A stretch of DNA of 64,000 bases from Paracyclopina nana (Eukaryota; Arthropoda; Copepoda; Cyclopoida; Cyclopettidae), in NCBI GenBank assembly GCA_019096065.1, contig JAGUCH010000002.1:12102501-12166500 (forward strand), in the 5' to 3' direction. The notes beneath the pieces are model-generated. The model worked only from the letters and a program-made list of their open reading frames with translations. It made no database searches and was not told the DNA's origin. Both the position numbers and the translations under genes were made by a program. This document shows, piece after piece, positions 13,221-35,945 of the stretch (within the stretch, counting starts at the first letter, position 1; each line of letters begins with the position of its first letter).

Positions 13221-15062
13221 ATGGCACATAGGAATTTTTGCATTCTGCTCATTGCTCTCCTTTCTTTGGCCACGTTGGCCTTTGCTGAAAAGGAAGAAGT
13301 GCAAGAGGCTAAAAGAGATGGCAAAGGTTGATTTCTACCCCATCTTAATTCAGAATCAGTTGATGGATTTCATTATTTTCTAGTTTTTTCTCTATTTTCT
13401 GTGGTTCAGTTTAAAAATGTTGCCTGCATCAGTACGTCCAGTTTGAGCACTGGCCAATCGACCAACAGAAATGGAACTTGCTTCAGCTCAAGGTAAATGG
13501 GCATAGAAATCTTTGTGATTTCCTTGCAAATAATGCATTGTTTGCAGTGAATGCTCGCGGAAGGGAGGATCTGCCAAAGGCTCGTGTGCGAGTGGGTAAG
13601 TATTTTTCTACGAGCCTAAGCTTGAAATAATGCATTTTATCCCTCATGTTTAGCTTTGGTGTATGTTGTGTTTTCACAGTGTCTGCAGCCAGCAGCACAA
13701 TTAATGTGAATGACACCTACATACAAAATCCAGGGTTCCCATCTGCTTACTCGGGAACCAATGCTGTCTCCTACACCATTCAAAAGTGTTCCAACGGTAA
13801 TCATGCAATGCCTAAATCATTGCTACAAATCTTTGTCATTATTTGTTTTCTAGACATTTGCTGGATCCGGCTGGATTTTGAGCAGTTTAATAACTTGGGA
13901 CCTTCAAATACCGTAGAGACCACAGGAGGTACTTGCACCGACTCTTTTACGGTTACGGTATGTAATAAAGCATTGCGAAAAATACTCTAGCGTTTTTCTA
14001 GCTTATCAATGACATTCGTGCTTTCAGACTAGTTCGAGCCAGCAAGTACCAGTCATTTGTGGGGTGAATAACGGGCAGCATATTTACCTTGACTTGGGCG
14101 CTCTACCTACTGATACCGCCACATTGAACTTTAATTTTGCTGGCACCTCAACGAGCAGGATTTGGGATATCAAAGCGTCCCAAATTCCCTGCGGCACAAA
14201 CTACGCGTAAGCATACCGATGACAAGGAAAATGAGCCATAACATGCAGACTTTTAAACTTGCAGGCCTCCCAATGGATGCCTTCAGTACCAGTATGGTTT
14301 AACTGGAAGAATCAAATCGTTCAACTTTGATGCGACTTCCAGCACTCACTTGGCTTCTCAGAGTTATGCTCACTGTATCAGGAGAGAGGAGGGTTATTGC
14401 TGCGTCCTATACCAAGTAAGTGCTGATTGGAATAATTTAGTGGGTTTTTTAAACTTTCCAATTTTTTGTTATTTAGGTGTGCAGTGATGCTAATTCGTTT
14501 AAGCTGAACAATGATGCAGCCACTGCTTTGGTTGATAGCGAATGCACCAAGGATTACATCAATATTGAGAGTGAGTTGAACTAATCAATGTGAGAATAAT
14601 CAAATTATTTCTATTGGCTAAATGTCCAGCTTCATCAAGCGCTTGCCAGCAAGTATCAGCTGGTGTTTCTTTCACCAACAAGTATTGTGGAAACATCCTC
14701 AATACTTTCAAGACAGCCACTGTGAACTCTCCCATTTGTGGTAATTTTCTGCCTTTGGATATAGCTTGTACTACAAAATAATCTTCTTTGTCTTGCTTTC
14801 TTATATAGATTGCACAGCTCCTTTTGAAGTCAACATCAGAACAGATAATTTGGCTGATACCAATTCTGCCACAGTCAACAATAGGGGTAAGCTTTTCCCA
14901 TCAATGAGAATAGCACGGAGGTTGTCCGACAAATTCCTAAAAAGTGCTACTACAAAGCTTTCTTTGATGAAAATTGTCGGACAATCATACTTACGATGTT
15001 TTCATGATTTTCCCATTTCAGGAGTGTGTCTGGATTACACACAAGTTCCCTGCACTAATTAG
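13221..15062 (+). CDS. secreted cysteine-rich CUB-like protein B
   Basis: Predicted secreted protein of 387 aa in 11 exons: 13221-13326, 13384-13492, 13548-13595, 13654-13796, 13854-13957, 14028-14206, 14265-14415, 14477-14570, 14630-14740, 14809-14886, 15022-15062. A signal peptide (MAHRNFCILLIALLSLATLA) is followed by a charged pro-segment. A Cys-rich module comes next (NRNGTCFSSSECSRKGG, GFGVCCVF). A CUB-like fold begins with NPGFPSAYSG and continues through ICWIRLDFEQFN and CIRREEGYCCVLY. It is paralogous to the divergent gene A, with many matching intron positions. Introns are mostly 50-70 nt. Poly(A) signal at 15115. Function unknown. Confidence 0.82.
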
Positions 15063-15114
15063 GATATTTTACAATAATTGGCAATGTCATCTTTTTAATC
15101 TATGCTCTCTGCTG

Positions 15115-15129
15115 AATAAACGCTTTATT
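15115..15129. terminator. palindromic bidirectional poly(A) signal
   Basis: The sequence AATAAACGCTTTATT carries AATAAA on the plus strand (15115-15120, for CUB-like gene B) and AATAAA on the minus strand (15129-15124, for the omega GST gene), 3 nt apart. The minus-strand copy overlaps the GST stop codon (15127-15125). Confidence 0.8.
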
Positions 15130-16099
15130 GAGGATCATAATTGGGCGACTGCTCCATGTAGCTTTTGAAGAAGGCTGTGTGTTCTTCCAGAGTTAAAATG
15201 TACCCATGCACAACAGGATCTTCCTTCATAGCTTTGATCCAAGCGTTCTGCAAAGAAAAGTGCATTTTCTACTTCCGAAATAATGAGGAAACTTTGTGTA
15301 ATATTTACAATTCTTGGGAATGAAGAGGTGGGAAGAATTTCTGGCAAATCCGAGAACAAACTGGGTATGATTTCCACTCTCTCCATCCATGGCCAAGTCA
15401 TGTAATCCAGCATTCCAGGCTCATTTTCCTTGGACAGAAACTTGCTCTCCCTTTTGGCCAGCTCCTTTTCAAAGAACTCCATTTTTTCATTGAACTTCTT
15501 GATGTTCTCCTCTCTGTCAGACTCGGATAGAATGATTTTGTAGAATAGACCAATGGCCTGCATGTCAAAAATCAGTATAAGCAACAATATACTAGTATAT
15601 GAATTGTGTGCCTTTACATTATCATAATGAGCCAGGAACATGCGATCCTTGGCTCGTTCTTCAGCTTTGGCAGGGTTTAATTTTCTGCCTGGAAACACTT
15701 CATCCAAATAATCATTGACGGGATGGCTTTCATAAAAAATCTCATCTCCCACCTGCAGCAATAAAAGAGGCCATCAAGGGCAAAAAGAAAGAGTATCAAT
15801 ATAGACGTGTACTTGAATGGTTGGCACTTTCCCCATAGGATTCTTGTTCAAAAACCATTGGGGCCTGTCCTTGAGGTTAACGTTGATCATGTCATACCTT
15901 CACAATTTTTGTTATTTTGATTCATACTTGAATTACGTAACTTTTCATGATATTGTACTTACGGAATCTTCTTAGCTTCAAGGGCCAGAACAGTTCTCTG
16001 GGCATATGGGCAGTACCTCATGTTGAACAAAGTCAGTTTATTTTTGTCAATTTTGGGACACTCATCAGAGCTATCGAGATGCTTGGACCACCTTACCAT
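15125..16099 (-). CDS. omega-class glutathione S-transferase
   Basis: Cytosolic thioltransferase/dehydroascorbate reductase family, 242 aa. Exons: 15963-16099, 15813-15897, 15618-15752, 15309-15557, 15125-15247. The thioredoxin-like N-terminal domain has the omega catalytic-cysteine motif MRYCPYAQR near residue 29 and the glutathione-binding KVPTIQ and ESHPVNDYLDE. The all-helical C-terminal domain follows. Length is normal for the class. In insects this class includes the pyrimidodiazepine synthase of eye-pigment synthesis, but the exact substrate cannot be read here. The stop codon lies inside the AATAAA of a poly(A) signal shared with the convergent gene. Confidence 0.9.
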
Positions 16100-23166: not shown

Positions 23167-26100
23167 TTAGTTCGTCAATGTCTGTTCCAAGCTTCTGCCA
23201 TTGTTTCCAAATAGCTTGTTTTGTAGAGCCTTGAAGAACTCTTGACTTTGTAGAAATTGCTCACAATTCGGCCCAACAATGTCACACAATTTCTGATAGC
23301 TCTTGAGGAACAGGAGTCTTTGCTCTTTCAACTCCTGAATTGAATCTTGCAGGTCCAACTTGTTCACATGGCTTTTTATGAGTTCAATTTCAGTCAGGAC
23401 TTCATCCAAAAGGTTCTTCATCTCAGCTTCCCCTTTAGACTTTTTACAGCAGTAAAAGTAATCTGCCACAATTAACTTGTGGCAAACCAAGCATCTCCAA
23501 GGAGGATCTTTGACCATTTTCAGTTCACTCCTCATCTTGTAGTTGTCAATGCAGGCTATACACCTGCAGTGGAAGTTGTAATGGTCAAGCAACCAAGACT
23601 GCCTTGCTATTTTCTCCACATGAGTATATAAGGGGAAGTAGTTTTCAGTGACTTCTTCACCTGAGTAATTATTAACAAATGGCGAACAATCGAGCGGAAA
23701 ACAAACTTGGTTAAGCTCTTCTTACCCTTGTAGATATTTCTGTTAGCTACAGCAATAAGGGTTGATCCAGAAAAATATTTGTAAATGTTTGGGTCACATG
23801 AATGGTTCAACAGTGCAATAGAAGGGTAAATTGCTGTACCAATAGAATGAGTTCTCCACTGAGTCCAATTGCTACCAGCTCGTCCAGTTGTATCCTCCAC
23901 ATCCATCTAGGTACAATCAAATATTGCATGCACTCAAGAAAGAAAACTATAAGCCTCACTGAAAATATGGCATGAGTGTTGAACCTAAGCAACTGGAAAA
24001 TGTCCACCATGATAGCACCAATTTTGGCCTCCTCAGGGCTCAGATCTGCAATTTCATCTTTAGGTCTTCCAAAGTAACCAGCAACCTGCAAGGCTCTCAA
24101 ATGGAACACAGCGCTCAAAACCAACCAGAAAAGGGTACAAGGAGTATCCTGACTTGAGTGCTTCACAAGGCCTAGCAGGCCACGATAATCTTGGGTAGAG
24201 CTGTTAAAGAACTCCAATGGTTTTTGAGCCACTAATTTCAACAATAGCCTGTAAAATCCAACAGTTCCATCTGTTCCATTTACCTAGTTACACATTTTAA
24301 AAGATTTATCCCTAAGACGGAAAAGGGGAAGATGGGAATATACCTTTGAAATAAAGTCATCAAAGAAGGCAGTTGTGTTTTTTGTCACTGCTGAACACTC
24401 CACTTTATGGTAAGTTTGATCAGCAATACTCAAGCACTCCTCTGAGCAAAATCTGACATCCACACATCTCGGACAAGGCACTTGAAACCCTCCACAAAAC
24501 CTGTTAACAATTCTCTCTTTCATATCTATTTGCATGAGACAAAAATTGACTTACTTCAGGCAACCCAACTAGGAAATTTTTTTGGATGCTAAGCAGGTTC
24601 TGGACATGCAAAGACAAGTTTTTGCCACTACATTGAAATGTTAGAAACTGCATCAAAAACATGTACAATTTTTTGATGTGTATTCTAACAATTTTTTTGC
24701 TGCTCTATCCCTATCTTCTGGTTTACGGCAATTCTGCTGACATTTCTACCGGTTAGAAATCTGGCGTAAACTTGTTCATGTCACATACATGTTTTCAACT
24801 ATTTTCTATATTTTTCATGAACAAGTTTACTACAGGAAATCTGTGACATTTCATGTGGATGATTGCAACAGATTTCTACCAAAAATCTGGAGATGATGCT
24901 AATTGTCCTGAATGCATGTTTTCTTACATGAAACCAACAGTTTTTCTAACAAACCTTAATTCAAAATGTAGTAAATCTGACGATCCCTTTCTGAGCAAGA
25001 ATGATCTGGAATTTTGCCGAAATCAGCTTGGAGCCGGCCATCAGCAGACATTTTGGTTGTGGCAAGCTATTTGAAAATTAAAAGTTTGCCAGTTGAACAC
25101 ATGATGGTTCTTCATCAATAAAAGCCTTCCAAGGCAAAGCAAGACCTTCCTGAGCTGAAGAACATCAAGCAAATACCCTTGATAGAGATAATTTTCTAGG
25201 GAGAGTGCAAAGGTAAGGCATTACAAAATTATAAAGGAAGGAAGTCATGTGACTAAACACTTAATTTTTAAGGTTTTGACTCAGGAGAGGGGCAGAAATT
25301 CATCAACCCTTAATTTGGATGACAAATTCCCCAATTCCCCACAACTAGCATCAACACAAAGCATGGACATCTACTAAGATCCCTACAAGCCTTACAAGAC
25401 CTGAATTGGCAAAAACGAGAGCAAGACAATTCATTATGTTTAAATATTATTAGAATATACATATTTCCTGTAATGCAAGGCTGTAAGAGGCCAATGAGGC
25501 CACAAAGGGCAGCAAGGCCTGAATTCGCGACCTTTTTCAAGCTCCATGCAAAGACAAGTTTTCAACAAGCAAAAAAAAAATAGCATCACTTTCTTAGCAA
25601 GCTTTCGAGTAAAGCTGTTGAAAACATGACAGAATGCAACTGTAGATGGGCCTCGGTCATTTTACCAAATGTAGAAGCGACATTTTTGCTGACATGAGTG
25701 GGTAAAGTTATCGCGATAACAATTCATTTAAAGTCAGTCTTCCTGAAGCTTGCATCTCCAGATTGGCTAACATGAATGTACCAGTATAGAAGATGTTTGT
25801 TAAGATTTTGTAGATAAATCAGCTCGATATTCTGAACATGTCAGCATCATTCTGACCCTTAATTTTCCTAGTTGGGAATGCTCACAATGATCTTTGGCCA
25901 ATTCTTTCTTAACCTTAGCTCCCAAAGCAGACTCATGCACCAAGATTTCACCAGCCTTTATGTTCCTGTTGGCCACTCCAAATCTCCCTCTCTCAGGGGC
26001 TGTCATGATCTTTATGGCACTACTTAAGGCTGGATATTGAGAATGTGATGAAAAATGCACTAATTCAGAATCATCACAGGATTCCTCTGAGTCTGACTTG

Positions 26101-26675
26101 TCATCAAGATTAGCCAGTTCTATTTCAAGGCCAGCCTTTTTGTCAGCAGTCACTTCTTTTTTATCTAAAAGCTCTCTGATTAACGTTCTTGCTAGTTCTA
26201 TTTTCCCTTGGTTGATTAAACATGCAACCTTTCTTTCCAACAGCTTCAGAGGAGCAGGATGACCGGCTTGCAAAGCACGGTCAATGTCAGCTATCGCGCG
26301 AGCGCTCCAGAAGCGCCCGCCCAAACGTAAACAAACAGCTGACCTGTTGGCAACAGCCAAGGCGTAAGCAGAGCTCTCTTTGGGGTCAGCGTACATGGCA
26401 GCTTCAGTGTAGAGTTCAAGAGCTTTGCGGTCACGCCCATTTTTGAAGGCTGAATTTCCCAATTCACGCAGCCTTGCTGATTCCATGCTGCTCTTCAGCG
26501 TTTTATCGAACTCTTTGGCCTTTTTGGCTTGATCTCTTAGTATAGCCTTGACAGTGACCAAATTGTAGACAAACACGATTCTTTCTTCATGATTGGTCAA
26601 TTTTTCGTAGATTTCAAAGTTGGCTTCTCCTCCTACAAGGCTGACAAGCCTGGGTTTCAAATCGGAATCTTTCAT
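23167..26675 (-). CDS. SMYD4: SMYD4-like SET/MYND methyltransferase, interrupted by a mobile element
   Basis: Exons in gene order: 25877-26675, 24555-24563 (same exon, split by the insertion), 24292-24500, 23960-24231, 23726-23906, 23167-23660. The N-terminus has TPR-like repeats (ARLRELGNSAFKNGRDRKAL) and the start of a SET domain (GRFGVANRNIKAGEILVHES). Downstream are MYND cysteines (CPRC, FCSEEC, YHKVEC), SET motifs NHSCDPN and GEEVTENY, and post-SET cysteines (HCRCIAC). Coding sequence breaks after KDHCEH, where a 1313-bp element begins, and resumes on its far side in the right frame. Without the element and one 2-bp duplication the exons total 654 codons. As assembled, no splicing I can find restores the first CxxC of the MYND finger, so this allele is probably defective. 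Confidence 0.88.
24564..25876. mobile_element. 1.3 kb non-autonomous DNA element with terminal inverted repeats
   Basis: The ends are inverted copies of CCCAACTAGGAAA (24564-24576 and 25876-25864), similarity fading inward. The element is flanked by AA on both sides on the plus strand, consistent with a 2-bp target duplication. It sits inside a SMYD4 exon, between H and the second Cys of the first MYND CxxC. Internally there is an 18-bp direct repeat (CATGCAAAGACAAGTTTT at 24605 and 25545) and a 15-bp inverted repeat (24766-24780 and 24816-24830). No transposase ORF is visible, so it would depend on another element. I do not recognise its superfamily. Confidence 0.8.
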
Positions 26676-29512: not shown

Positions 29513-31240
29513 TCAAAAGAAAATGGAAGACTTGCCTCCTGGAGGATTTCTCACCCTGATTTGAGGCTTGGAATCAATAGCTGGCTTAGTGGGAGATACC
29601 ACAGCCTCAGCTTTAGCCTCTTGTTGAGGATGCCCCCCCAAGTCAAGGCTTGACTTGTGCTGATTAGGGGCTGGCTTTAAATCCTCTTCAAAGACTGGTT
29701 CCTTGCCTTCCACCTTCATGTCTTCAGGTGACCGTTCCACCTTTACTTCCCTAAGAAGCCTCTCCGCTTCATTTGCTTTCACTCTGTCATAAACATAGGG
29801 AGAGTAAGGTGGGTTCTTGATGAACCTTCCACTTCCTTGGCTGACCTTGAGTTCACCTTCATCAACTACTACTCGACCATTAGTCAAAACGTAGTCAGCC
29901 ACGCCATGCACAGTCATGCCTTCAAAGATGTTAAAATCAACAGCATGGTGATGAGTCGCTGCTGAAATGGTTCTCGTCTTCTCTGGATCCCAGACAATGA
30001 TGTCAGCATCAGAGCCTGGTGCAATCACTCCTTTGGAAGGATAAAAGTTGAAAATCTTGGCTGCAGTTGTGCTTGTCACCGAGACAAATCGCTCAGGAGA
30101 CATCTTGCCTGAGTGCACACCTCCCTCCCAGATTACGGACATTCTGTCTTCAAGTCCATTAACTCCGTTTGGAATCTTTGTAAAGTCGTTGATTCCAAGT
30201 GCTTTTTGCTTGGCATTAAAAGTGCAATTGTCTGTCCCTGTGAGATCCAGTCCTCCATCAGCAAGTTTGTCCATAAGATATTCTGGCGTGGACTCATCTT
30301 CCCTCAGAGGAGGGCTGAGAACATAGGCTGCTGCATGTCTCCAACACCTATGGTAATAATGGGTGCCATTGCATGCCAGAGATGCTGCTATGGGCTCGCC
30401 AAAAACAACTTGGCCATTGTTCTTCCTCTCAATGATAGTGTCAGCAGCAGTCTTGGACATGACATGCACAATATACAGAGGGCAATCCAGTTGATTTGCC
30501 ATCAAGCAGGCTCTAGTGACCGCCTCATTTTCACACTCCTCTGGTCTGGATAGGGGATGTCCTTCTGGACCAGTGATGCCTTTGCTCAAGAGCCTTTTCT
30601 GGTTCTCAGCAATGGCCTCTCCATTCTCAGCATGAACCTGAGCCAAGCCTCCAATATTTCTGCAGTGCTTCATCACCTCCATCATGTCTCCATCAGGCAG
30701 CATCAGGATATCCTTGTAAGCCATGAACATTTTGAAAGAGTTGATGCCAAGTTCCTCTGAGCAAATTTGCTCCATTTCTCTTTTGACATCATCATTCCAA
30801 TAGGTAATGGCCATATGGAGGGAATAGTCACAACAGACTTTCTCATCAGCCCATGCTCTCCATTGCTTGTAGGCCTCAATCAATGATGTGCCCTTGAGTG
30901 GGATGACAAAGTCAATGATCATGGTTGTGCCACCTGCCAAGGCTGCCTTGGTTCCCACATAAAAGTCATCTATGGCCTTTGTGCCCATGAATGGCATTTG
31001 ACAATGGGTATGCGAGTCAATGCCACCTGGCATAATTAGCTTCCCAGTGGCATCAATGATCCTGGTTCCTCCAGGAATGTCAAGGTTGGTCCCCACCTGC
31101 TTGATGTACCTGTCCTCCACATAGACATCAGCCTTCTGTGACCCATGCTCATTGACAACAGTGCCACCCTTGATGAGCACCCTGTTTTGGGAGCTTTGCA
31201 AGTGCATAGAAGTCTTCCTGGTGTCATCATGACCCGCCAT
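29513..31240 (-). CDS. dihydropyrimidinase/CRMP family protein with catalytic residues
   Basis: Cyclic-amidohydrolase TIM-barrel protein, 575 aa, one coding exon. All expected dihydropyrimidinase metal ligands are present: HTH near residues 77-79, the Lys that is carboxylated (SFKMFMAYK, near 170), His in VHAEN (near 203), His in YIVHVMS (near 259) and Asp in TGTDNCTF. It could therefore hydrolyse dihydrouracil-type rings. It also has a CRMP-like C-terminal tail ending [16 protein letters not shown] splice acceptor just upstream of the ATG (TTTTTTCCAG) suggests a non-coding first exon. It is the downstream member of a tandem pair with the CRMP gene at 31406. In Drosophila one gene makes both activities by alternative splicing. 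Confidence 0.93.
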
Positions 31241-31384
31241 CTTGTCAGAACTGGAAAAAAGGGCAAAACAAGTGTGGTAACAGGAAACTCGAGATTAAGA
31301 TTAAGCTGCTGCTGCTGCTAAAGTTCACTTATCCATTCGCGTGCACATGAATTATGTTATGAGGCAATAGCAAATCATTGTACA

Positions 31385-31390
31385 TTTATT
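31385..31390 (-). terminator. poly(A) signal of the CRMP-like gene
   Basis: AATAAA on the minus strand, 16 nt after the stop codon at 31406. Confidence 0.6.
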
Positions 31391-31405
31391 TCACTTTACA
31401 AAAAG

Positions 31406-33274
31406 CTACCAGAAGCTGCCAGAAGATCTTCCACCAGGAGGATTTTTTATCCTAATGGAAGATCTGTGCTTGGTTCTGGTCAAGTTGTTGTTTTCTAAAG
31501 CTGTCTCAGGCTCAGGGTCCATTGGATGAGATTTCAAGTCAAATTGAGAAATGTGTTGACTGGGTGCCTTCTCTGGCTGCAAAGATTTGGCAGCAGCTGG
31601 AGGGGGAATGTCCCCACCATTCACCTGAAAATCCTGCTCTTCGCGAATAACTGGGGTGAACTTGAACACTTCCTTGGACTTGATCTTCTCATAAACATGA
31701 GCTGGGTATGGCGATAGAGGGATGAACCTTCCATGACCTTGGACAGCCTTGAGATCACCTTCATCCACCACCACCCTCCCTCGAAGGATGACATATTCAG
31801 CCTTTCCATGCACAGACAATCCTTCATAGATGTTCAAGTCGGACTTGGAGATCTGATTCTTGGTTGAAATGGTGGTGATTGCTTTCGGGTCCCAAACAAC
31901 TATGTCAGCTTGAGAGCCTACATCAATGTATCCTTTATCAGGATACAAGCCAAAAATCTTGGCTGCAGCTGCGCTTGTCACTGCAACAAATCTCTCAGGT
32001 GTCATCTTTCCAGATTGCACACCTTGCTCCCAAATGATGGACATTCGTTCCTGCACTCCGTTTGCTCCAACTGGAATCTTTGTAAAGTCATTGATCCCCA
32101 GAGCTTTTTGGTTTGAGTTAAATGTTGCATGATTGCTCCCACTCAAGTCAAGACTTCCTTCCTCAGCCAAAGCATCATTCAGTGCTTCACTTTGATCCCT
32201 CCTCAATGGAGGATTCATGACCAGTGCAGCAGCCTTTTTCCAATCCTTCACCAAGTAACCTTTGCCATCCAGAGTCAAGCTAGCAGGGTTGGCTTCTCCG
32301 AAGATAACCTGATCTTTTTTCTTCTTGGCCTTGATAATGTCTACTGAGGACTTTGATGAGATATGAGGCAGATAAAGTGGACAATTCATTTGATTGGCCA
32401 AAGTGCAAGCTCTTAGGACTGCCTCTTCTTCAACTTCTTCGGAATGAGCAAGGGGAAATCCTTCAGGTCCGGTGACTCCTTGATCTAGGATTTTCCTCGT
32501 GTTCCTCTTCACCAGCTCTCCATTCTCATAGACCACCTGAGCCACACATCCTTAGAGGGGAGAGGAAGAAAACAGTAATTATTATTTGCCTCTATTGCTA
32601 TGAGAAAATAATTTCTTACCCAGGCTGGAACAAGTGTCAAAAAACTCTATTAGCTCTTCATCGTGGAGCTGCTCCATTGAAGCTTGGAAGCAATTAACAG
32701 CATAATTGTCCACAGTCAGCTCCCTCATTTCATCAATCATCGCAGGGGTGAGTTTTTCTTCTGGCAGTTTTATCTTGAAGGAGAAATCACAACATGCCTT
32801 TTCTTCAGCCCAACCTTGCCATTTGTCAAATGCTAATTTAAGAAGATTAAAGCATTTTATTGGCAAAATCACTTAGCAAGTTAAAGTACCTTTGATGAGA
32901 GATTCTCCAATTTCAGGTTTAACCAGATCAATCACAGTGGTGGTGCCACCAGCTACAGCAGCCTTGGTGCCACTGTAGAAATCGTCAATGGTCCTGGTAC
33001 CATTTGGGGCCTCAGTTCCCTCCGTTTTGACCGGGCTTTGGAGGTGCACATTGGGATCGATGCCACCGGGAATGATGTACTTGCCAAGCACATCAATGAT
33101 CCGCGTTCCCCCAGGAATGATCAAATGGTTGCCAACTTGCTTAATTATGGAGTCTTCGATGTAGACGTCGGCCACTTTGCACCCATCATGGTTGACAATT
33201 GTACCGTTTTTCAGCAGAATTCGGTGCTGTGCACTTTGCACATGCATCACCAGCTTTTTGCTGGTTTCGTCCAT
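31406..33274 (-). CDS. CRMP: collapsin response mediator protein-like, non-catalytic
   Basis: 580 aa; exons 32890-33274, 32620-32832, 31406-32550. Same fold and C-terminal tail (IRIKNPPGGRSS) as the neighbour at 29513, but most metal ligands are gone. The first motif reads DPNVH instead of DSHTH, the carboxy-lysine region reads NCFQASM, HAENGE is VYENGE, and TGTDNCTF is SGSNHATF; only the His in LPHISSK is kept. It is thus like vertebrate CRMPs, which act in axon guidance and cytoskeletal control rather than catalysis. Start chosen at ATG 33274, before DETSKK. Two introns of about 57-70 nt interrupt it, whereas the paralogue has none in its coding part. Confidence 0.9.
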
Positions 33275-35945
33275 AGCGCACGGAGTCTTGGCATTAACTA
33301 CTATTAGCACTAAAGCTAGTGTGCTACTACATTGCTATGGGAGTCTAGCTTATAGTAATGCACACTGGGCTGACGCAGGGAAAATCGACTTTACTGGGCT
33401 TGGGAATTTAGTAAAAACAGGAGGCCCCTCTTTTTTTGCTGGCATTATTACATAATGTGAAAGTTCCTTAGGTTGACACATTAGTGCTTATCCATATGGT
33501 AAATCATCAGATTTTCCGAAAAATCGCATATTTTATACAAAGTTATATTTGATATTTTTTAGGCAGCTTTATTCATCATTTTTTCGGGCTTAGTTAATAT
33601 TTTTATAGCTGCAGACCACTGTGTTACAGCTTTACGCATATCACAAGCTAGCGCGCTGTTTTTTTCACAGGTGCTTCTTTTCTTAATAAACCTTCGCCCT
33701 ATTACAGTTCTCGTAGAATGTAACGACAACTGCGGTTTTACACTTTGCTGCCCGATTATTGAAGGATTTTCGGTCTAGATGTCACGTTAGTCAAGCTTAA
33801 ATGACATTTTCCCAGCGTCTTTTTTACATAATTGTCCTCATTGCCTCACTTACTTTACTTCACTTCAAAGTTAGTTTCTGTAGCGAGACACTATTTTCAT
33901 GTAAGGCCATTTAAAAGGTTTGCATGTGCTTTGGAAGGCCACGTGAATTGATTGTAGCTAACAGCGTGGCCAATGATAAGAGAACCTTCAGCCATTTTCA
34001 TTACCATGGCTGATTTTACTTTACTCTATCAATCAGAGCTCTTTAAACTAAGCACCCCCCTTTCAAACTCCTTTGTTGCAACAATTAATAACACACACTT
34101 GCGTCATTAGCTTTGGGTGTAATTTTGAAACCCTAGATTATTAGACTTGTCATCCATCAAATCAACCTGGCTTCACACAATTTATTAAGTCCCATTAGTC
34201 AAAAGTACTAATTTTGACTGTAGCAGTGATACTTTCATACTTTTTTCCATTATAAGCACAGTTGATGATAAAAAAAGGAATCACGCTTGAAAATCTCCTC
34301 CTTTTGCCAGGTGCAATTCTTCATTATTACTATTTTATCTAGGCCTCTAATTTTTATCACCCGCGTGAACTTGTTTGCTTCGCAGTTCCCCGAATCACTT
34401 TTTCTTCTTTTGATGCCGCTTTTCTCTTTGACTACAGCGGAAGTTTCCTTTGTTTTTCTGCATGACAATGCATTTAGCTGTCATTTGTCTGGATTTAATT
34501 CATGGAACTTTTAATTGAATCTTTTGTGCTCGAATTTTACCTTTTCTCTCGGGAACTTAAGAATCACTGTCAACAAAAAAAAAGAAGTTATTTCAGTCTT
34601 GTCAACATTCCGTCGGCATTTTTATTGATATCGCAGCCACCATGGCAAATAAATATCACGGTTATTTGAGAGAATCCATCCATGATAATGACAAAAGATG
34701 ATCATCTCCAAGGAGACAGATGCGCTTTTGATTGTGACAAAAAAAAATGAATTCACGGCTAAAAAAATCCAGATATGACCACCGCGCCCAATTTGTGGCG
34801 AATTTCTAAAAATCATTCATTATTTGGCCATAAATATGACAAATTTGCAACACCTGCCAACTTGAAAGAGTGCCGCAATAAGTCAACATGCTGGTAACAA
34901 GTTATTTATGGACTTTTTTAAAAACGCCTCGAAAGATCTCGCCATTTTTCCTCCCCCCGTTCACCAGCAACCATCTTTTGTTAAAAATCAACCATTTTGT
35001 CAAGCTCGACAGAGTTGCATTCAACTTCTTGATTACTGACAGATGAGGATTCATTTTTTACCAAAATATGGCTGATGCTCCATTTAGCTTCTTCGTTTCC
35101 TGTGAAACTAATTTACTTCATGCTCCAGAGAAAAATGCTTTTTTAGCCGTGACAAGTCAAGCACCAAGTGAAATAATCGAAAATTGTGTTCTAATTTGCT
35201 TACTAATGACTCAAATCTGTACTGTATTTTTAGCAGCAGCAGAATATTGGTGTAATGTTGGATTTAAAATGACTCTTACCTTGATTTTGAGCAGCAGCTG
35301 GAGAACTTTCGGTGATTAGGGCCGGTATAGACTAAAGGGGCCACAAGGATTGGGTGGGTGTTGGAGCAGGTTAGAATTGCAGCAAGAACGCTACAAATAA
35401 GGTAGGTCGTGCGTGAAATCCACAAAATTGACTTGCCATTTTCAAACAAACCTTCTGCTGAACTTTAAGCCAGCTTTTGCTTTTTCATGCAGAAATTCAC
35501 CGCTGATTGCTGCTGCTGCCATAGAAAAGAATCACTTTTACTTGTCATGCGCCCAGTGTGATATGAAAAGTCGTTAATCACCAATGCTATAATTATAGAA
35601 CAAATTCCCAGTGGCAAAGTAGCTTAATTGAGGAAATAGCACGAGAATATTACAGCGTTGTTTTTGTCCAAGAAGACTTTGTGATGCATATCAAATATGG
35701 CTAACCTCTCTTGATCGTCCTTGATGTGCCCTTGTGTGCTTATAGTTTCACCTCTCCATATATAGGAGTCGGTATGCACTTTTCAAATAATAATGGTCGC
35801 AAGCAATTTCAAAGCTCAGCAAATAGAACGTGCGTACCTCTGAAATTCTCGCAAATTGTTGGAGCATACTTTTCAATAACTACCTTCAGCCAACGAAGCA
35901 TTTTATTGTAAAGAAAAGAAAATCACGCCAATTTCTAACACAGTT
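33275..35945. other. 2.7 kb spacer upstream of the CRMP pair
   Basis: AT-rich. Only short, uninformative open frames on both strands; no exon recognised. Upstream non-coding exons and the CRMP/DHP promoter may lie here, as may the 3' end of the TTC32-like gene. Confidence 0.45.

Follow-up and report, generated by a model that had tools for sequence, protein, structure and literature searches.

The CACTA (En/Spm) transposons of plants duplicate 3 bp of their target on insertion, and their short dSpm derivatives are non-autonomous passengers, bounded by terminal inverted repeats (TIRs), that interrupt exons. Plant CACTA ends have a CACTA core, and the animal elements described as Transposons Related to CACTA (TRC) have ends that start with CCC and are flanked by 2-bp repeats (PMC1636069). 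The ends given for this group read CCCAGTCAAC in Aedes and CCCTAGTAGCACC in Tribolium, and SmTRC1 of Schistosoma, for which alternatively spliced transcripts were described, showed 2-bp direct repeats in 7 of the 14 copies analysed (PMC1636069). According to the same account, TRC elements have sizes of about 5.2 and 9.2 kb and carry a CxxC motif, the eumetazoan ones share the motif L/V/I-D-X-L/M-H-X3-L-G, and the published distance between the two aspartates is 80 (PMC1636069). In the wider CMC group, the transposases hold C(2)C and H(3-4)H motifs between the second D and the E, and the termini of CMC/CMCT elements are 5'-CA..TG-3' in most cases (PMC12730594), a form from which published TRC ends also deviate (PMC1636069). 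Another described element, Spongebob (tabulated as EnSpm-4N1_HM, from Hydra), has CCC ends and 2-bp duplications and was assigned to the TRC group of CACTA; its consensus is 5,836 bp long, and its exact transposase was difficult for its authors to find (PMC4298943).

In a stretch of 64,000 nucleotides of Paracyclopina nana DNA (the window), we found a 1313-bp element that shares with SmTRC1 and with the Tribolium and Aedes elements the CCC-starting ends, the 2-bp repeats and, in its larger relatives, the CxxC motif, but which differs from them in its end CCCAACTAGG, in a eumetazoan motif that is only partial and in the lack of a Transposase_21 match. A further difference is that the larger elements carry a second gene head-to-head with their transposase, whereas the account of SmTRC1 is one of alternative splicing. 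The 1313-bp element has CCC-starting ends and 2-bp duplications in common with Spongebob, although the two sequences are different and the Spongebob consensus is larger, at 5,836 bp. Finally, it is like plant dSpm in being a short TIR-bounded passenger inside an exon, and unlike plant CACTA elements in its CCC ends and 2-bp duplications. We consider it very likely that this is a non-autonomous DNA transposon of the TRC branch of CACTA/EnSpm (CMC), an assignment that rests on the CCC ends, the 2-bp duplications and the larger relatives with the CMC pattern D..D..CxxC..HxxxH..E. The locus (Table 1) shows clearly, and in a form open to testing, how a young CACTA-type element of an animal breaks a conserved coding exon; a paralogue may act as backup.

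Table 1. Features of the interrupted gene and of the inserted element, in window coordinates.
Feature	Position	Strand	Remarks
1313-bp element, very probably a non-autonomous TRC-type CACTA transposon	24564..25876	.	11 full-length genome copies, 2-bp duplications, longest stop-to-stop stretch 86 codons
Left terminal inverted repeat CCCAACTAGGAAA	24564..24576	+	exact 13-bp match to right end
Right terminal inverted repeat, same 13 bases on minus strand	25864..25876	-	
Target-site duplication AA, left copy	24562..24563	.	
Target-site duplication AA, right copy	25877..25878	.	
SMYD4-like exon 1, first part (TPR-like region, SET start, first MYND Cys)	25877..26675	-	
Exon 1 remainder past the insertion (24555-24561 plus duplicated AA), up to donor GTAAGT	24555..24563	-	
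SMYD4-like exon 2, remaining MYND finger	24344..24500	-	
SMYD4-like exon 3	23960..24283	-	
SMYD4-like exon 4, with NHSCDPN of SET domain	23726..23906	-	
SMYD4-like exon 5 through stop	23167..23660	-	

The host gene has five exons (26675 to 23167, minus strand) and GT-AG introns of 54, 60, 53 and 65 bp. Its product shows a TPR-like region and a MYND finger within a split SET domain, and from this layout we take it to be SMYD4-like. Between the insertion and the GTAAGT donor of this exon there are 7 bases, or 9 if the duplicated AA is counted. When the element and one AA are removed, the flanks join as DHCEH-CLK and the exons encode 653 residues plus the stop, that is, 654 codons counted from the codon after the ATG (26675-26673). 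This reproduces exactly the total in an earlier note on this DNA, which had also recognised that the element splits a MYND Cys codon whose joined flanks restore DHCEH-CLK, and the gene is otherwise intact. In Pfam, the joined product matched SET (E 2.8e-10), with MYND just below its cut-off (E 0.00015, 22.2 bits against 22.7) and TPR_2 also below its own (E 0.008).

The inverted ends of the element are exact over 13 bp and 94% complementary over 16 bp, and coding capacity is absent, no stop-to-stop stretch being longer than 86 codons. In agreement with the original description of a TIR element without transposase inside a duplicated AA, we see the AA outside both ends. End structure alone is nevertheless weak evidence, because the window contains a second 13-bp inverted pair with a matching outer dinucleotide (GA) at a spacing of 0.5-3 kb, at 14223-15432; this pair is single-copy in the genome, a chance look-alike that serves as a control. 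For 24564..25876, an origin as a chance inverted repeat is ruled out by the genome copies of the element and of its ends. The element is real, and it is the copies, rather than the structure, that decide this.

Searched against the genome (91.95 Mb in 10 contigs, one assembled haplotype), the 1313-bp element gave 32 match rows, 11 of them full-length, comprising eight at 99-100% identity (window copy included) and three at 92-93%; the remaining rows are two copies split by other insertions and others that are partial or diverged. The window copy differs by 1, 1, 3 and 4 mismatches from L002, L003, L004 and L005, respectively, and by 12 mismatches and one gap column from each of L006-L008. A genome-wide count of the 13-bp end gave 46 occurrences (including a 3.1-kb pair on contig C6) against 4 for the same pattern read backwards, and CCCAACTAGGAAA, beginning with CCC, is found on both ends of the window copy and of the 1.3-kb copies L002-L008 and L015-L017. 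The earlier note had made its reading depend on further copies existing, and many are present genome-wide.

The 2-bp duplication was found in all 19 insertions of this and related elements having one left and one right end (L001-L008, L014-L018, L022, the 6.5-kb L051 and four copies of about 8.8 kb), with ten different dinucleotides among the 19 and a third duplicated base in a single case, against a chance expectation of about 0.066 dinucleotide matches per site. The count leaves out L013, L019 and L021, which have one end only, L023, which covers the locus already counted as L051, and L020, a rearranged locus that has two left ends and no duplication (CA vs CT). Additionally, the joined flanks of 18 sites (the window's own excluded) were searched against the genome, the best 40 of 184 candidates being scored, and among the matches listed there were related empty sites for three of the 18: L005, with 38 rows at 97-99% that belong to a many-copy repeat, L010, with one at 100%, and L051, with one at 99%. 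The L005 repeat filled this listing to the point that for the other 15 sites not even their own flanks appeared in it. For the window site, the one empty counterpart comes from the paralogue, in which CEHC-L is uninterrupted. The CCC-ended TRC group gains in this way a family for which 2-bp duplications are documented at 19 insertions, three of them with related empty sites; provisionally, we take it to be a new family of a known kind.

Because no frame in it exceeds 86 codons, the 1.3-kb element must depend for its movement on a protein made elsewhere; mobilisation in trans, as a non-autonomous passenger, is the most likely mode. The best candidate source of transposase that we found, judged on sequence, is the family of four elements of about 8.8 kb, which are 97.9-99.2% alike when the fetched sequences are compared with their flanks and without counting gaps, have the same left end as the 1.3-kb element and are flanked by the duplications AT, GA, CT and TA. 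Their right end reads CCCGACTAGG inward, with one base different in the first ten. As their ends are only 67% (over 280 bp) and 71% (over 133 bp) identical to the 1.3-kb element, this family may not be its source and a closer one may exist. Where the earlier note had looked to the genome for both copies and an autonomous relative, the copies were found and the relative has for now a candidate.

The 8.8-kb elements contain a 679-codon transposase frame, uninterrupted in two of the four and broken in the other two. We aligned it with 12 relatives from the same genome, giving 13 sequences in which near-identical pairs are included (such as L038/L039 and L041/L042). All 13 have the second Asp (D277, in GD.P.R), C296xxC299, H520xxxH524 and E543, and all 12 that cover the region of the first Asp have D212. 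The larger relatives have, as CMC transposases do, C(2)C and H(3-4)H between the second D and the last E, residues that would be expected to have a catalytic role. The motif corresponding to that of eumetazoan TRC elements reads E/D-P-M-H-X3-G, with P, M, H and G invariant in the 13 sequences, D in 2 of them and E in the other 11; the L before the G is absent, and the distance from the first to the second Asp is 65 against the published 80.

Profile searches were mostly silent. Transposase_21 (PF02992) matched none of the 13 aligned transposases and was blank genome-wide, as it was in its 14 control genomes, and the nearest Pfam entry was DUF1258, in 2 of the 13, with a best E of 0.01 and one match at 15.5 bits against a cut-off of 33.1. 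No Pfam family matched the transposase above cut-off (the genome-wide runs had silent controls), its comparison by sequence with solved structures gave no relative, and a search for the transposase pattern in viral contigs gave 57 pattern matches and no relative.

This Pfam silence, together with L020, the partial motif, the Asp spacing of 65 and the 67-71% end likeness of the 8.8-kb relatives, weakens the TRC assignment. It could be read as a sign that the element belongs to another superfamily, be it Mirage, Chapaev, Transib or a new one, for which the lack of any Pfam match above cut-off speaks with the same reservation about silent controls; we regard this as very improbable, given that 2-bp duplications without TA preference, CCC ends and CxxC/HxxxH jointly fit TRC. 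Target-site duplications are TA for Mirage, 4 bp for Chapaev and 5 bp for Transib, none of which fits here, and for Mirage in particular the duplication is TA in only 2 of the 19 insertions. Within the preferred CACTA assignment, the ends are CCC..GGG rather than the 5'-CA..TG-3' of CMC/CMCT termini, and the CCCAACTAG ends and 2-bp duplications depart from the CACTA core and 3-bp duplication of the plant type. In sum, the TIR element, its insertion in the MYND exon and the 2-bp duplication of the earlier note all stand, and the superfamily that it could not name is most likely TRC/CACTA, since CCC ends together with 2-bp duplications have been published as hallmarks of animal TRC elements and the transposase pattern of the 8.8-kb relatives matches.

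By analogy with the TRC/CACTA family, insertion would have proceeded by cut and paste. A transposase from an 8.8-kb-type relative would recognise the CCCAACTAGG ends and excise the 1.3-kb element elsewhere, the element would be pasted in where the exon of the SMYD4-like gene had been cut with a 2-bp stagger, and repair of this cut would double two bases, leaving the AA duplication.

As it stands, exon 1 reads 25 codons into the element and then meets a stop. The predicted product is about 291 aa long, and a Pfam scan of it matched neither MYND nor SET. If the element is kept in the RNA, translation would accordingly end at that stop, before the remaining MYND and SET. We enumerated donors, sought from 26072 on, and acceptors with a generic score matrix. 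Through an acceptor in the element there are five in-frame, stop-free routes, all of them via the left inverted repeat at 24568, which on the gene strand ends ...TTTCCTAG|TTGGG, a weak possible splice acceptor; one further frame-keeping route goes straight to exon 2 from a very weak donor. Neither the five in-element routes nor the direct one succeeded in restoring the original protein with the element as an intron.

A precedent for such splicing exists in maize dSpm alleles, in which CACTA inserts are removed via an acceptor in the inverted repeat. It is conceivable in the same manner, if very unlikely, that splicing removes a portion of the element, from donor 25856 to acceptor 24568, so that the gene is not abolished and the protein is otherwise in frame, with 9 residues added in the first MYND knuckle (DHCEH-SQLGKLRLG-CLK). 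This route scores best among the five, and its donor, at 0.5, scores like the four native donors (-0.1 to 4.9), but its acceptor, at -3.7, is lower than the gene's own four (-2.0 to 2.7), a 14-nt exon piece would be left ahead of the normal donor, a 1.3-kb intron would be unusual for a gene whose introns are 53-65 bp, and the Cys spacing in the MYND knuckle would be altered. Truncation appears to be the likelier outcome than frame-keeping splicing. Among the papers searched, none brought SMYD4 together with a transposon insertion.

We regard a recent insertion as probable, given that the gene is otherwise undamaged and that a single base in 1313 separates the window copy from its closest counterparts. 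A paralogue of the gene is located on contig C3, 57% identical to exon 1 over residues 2-156 and 40% over 175-265; in the part read, which extends as far as the fetched locus reaches (L047 1477-3468), it retains CEHC-L and the following MYND cysteines, with 23 of 39 residues identical there. Because this paralogue retains the MYND start, loss of all SMYD4 activity is not implied, which weakens the 'loss of SMYD4 function' proposed originally. The locus with the intact CEHC MYND start adjoins another gene, which by eye looks REEP5-like.

How the interrupted copy came to be in the assembly can be read in two ways. We find it about evenly balanced whether the assembly picked up, by chance, a rare or heterozygous allele with the insertion, the site being empty on most chromosomes: the other exons and splice sites are intact and the nearest copies are one base apart, as would be the case for a young allele, but the genome search, covering one haplotype, gave no second allele of exon 1. 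That the window gene is instead a duplicate, recently killed and now fixed in that state, with the C3 paralogue doing its work, seems to us rather unlikely, for although the paralogue keeps CEHC-L and the following MYND cysteines, the window gene is without any further lesion.

More unusual than the single insertion is the large and diverse set of TRC-like transposases that this genome has. A transposase search of the genome, in which the best 65 of 241 candidates were scored, listed 66 rows; among these matches, 55 are open, with no stop, over 650 aa or more, and 57 show 30-42% identity to the query. These dozens of uninterrupted frames provide material for studying animal CACTA elements. On the opposite strand of the 8.8-kb element (L010 5497-6522, +) a second protein is encoded, with 28 genome rows at 23 places, and at 17 of the 23 it lies head-to-head with a listed transposase row, with 1.5-1.9 kb between the matched stretches; the 17 comprise the four 8.8-kb elements, among them that of the query, and 13 further loci. 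Such an arrangement points to a two-gene plan, transposase and second protein head-to-head, that may be conserved. The second protein had nothing above cut-off in Pfam in the parts scanned. For the elements L044 and L045, one pair of copies, a pattern search for the far end gave four matches, none of them pairing within one element; the pair ends in CCCCACTACC, again starting with CCC. Tentatively, and with somewhat less than even confidence, we propose a large radiation of an undescribed TRC/CACTA sub-lineage with a head-to-head DDE transposase and second protein, active now or very recently and still making gene-breaking insertions.

Several neighbouring structures were also observed. An element copy in L014 (1310-8168) is split by a 6.86-kb FoldBack-like insert with a 9-bp duplication and inverted arms of about 1.4 kb made of short repeats, 88% identical, and another in L018 (271-704) by a 434-bp insert similar to a short hAT element, whose inverted ends read CAGAGACTTATATA and whose duplication is 8 bp long. 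L022 (282-1560) and L051 (101-6564) represent another subfamily bearing CCCAACTAG ends, which has in common with the 1.3-kb element an inner block of about 250 bp at 73-75%. Retroelement-like frames, gypsy-like by eye in L051, occur within or beside TRC-ended elements in L051 (826-5325) and L050 (3-6736). Elsewhere in the window, at 29516-33334 on the minus strand, there are two tandem genes that resemble dihydropyrimidinase/CRMP.
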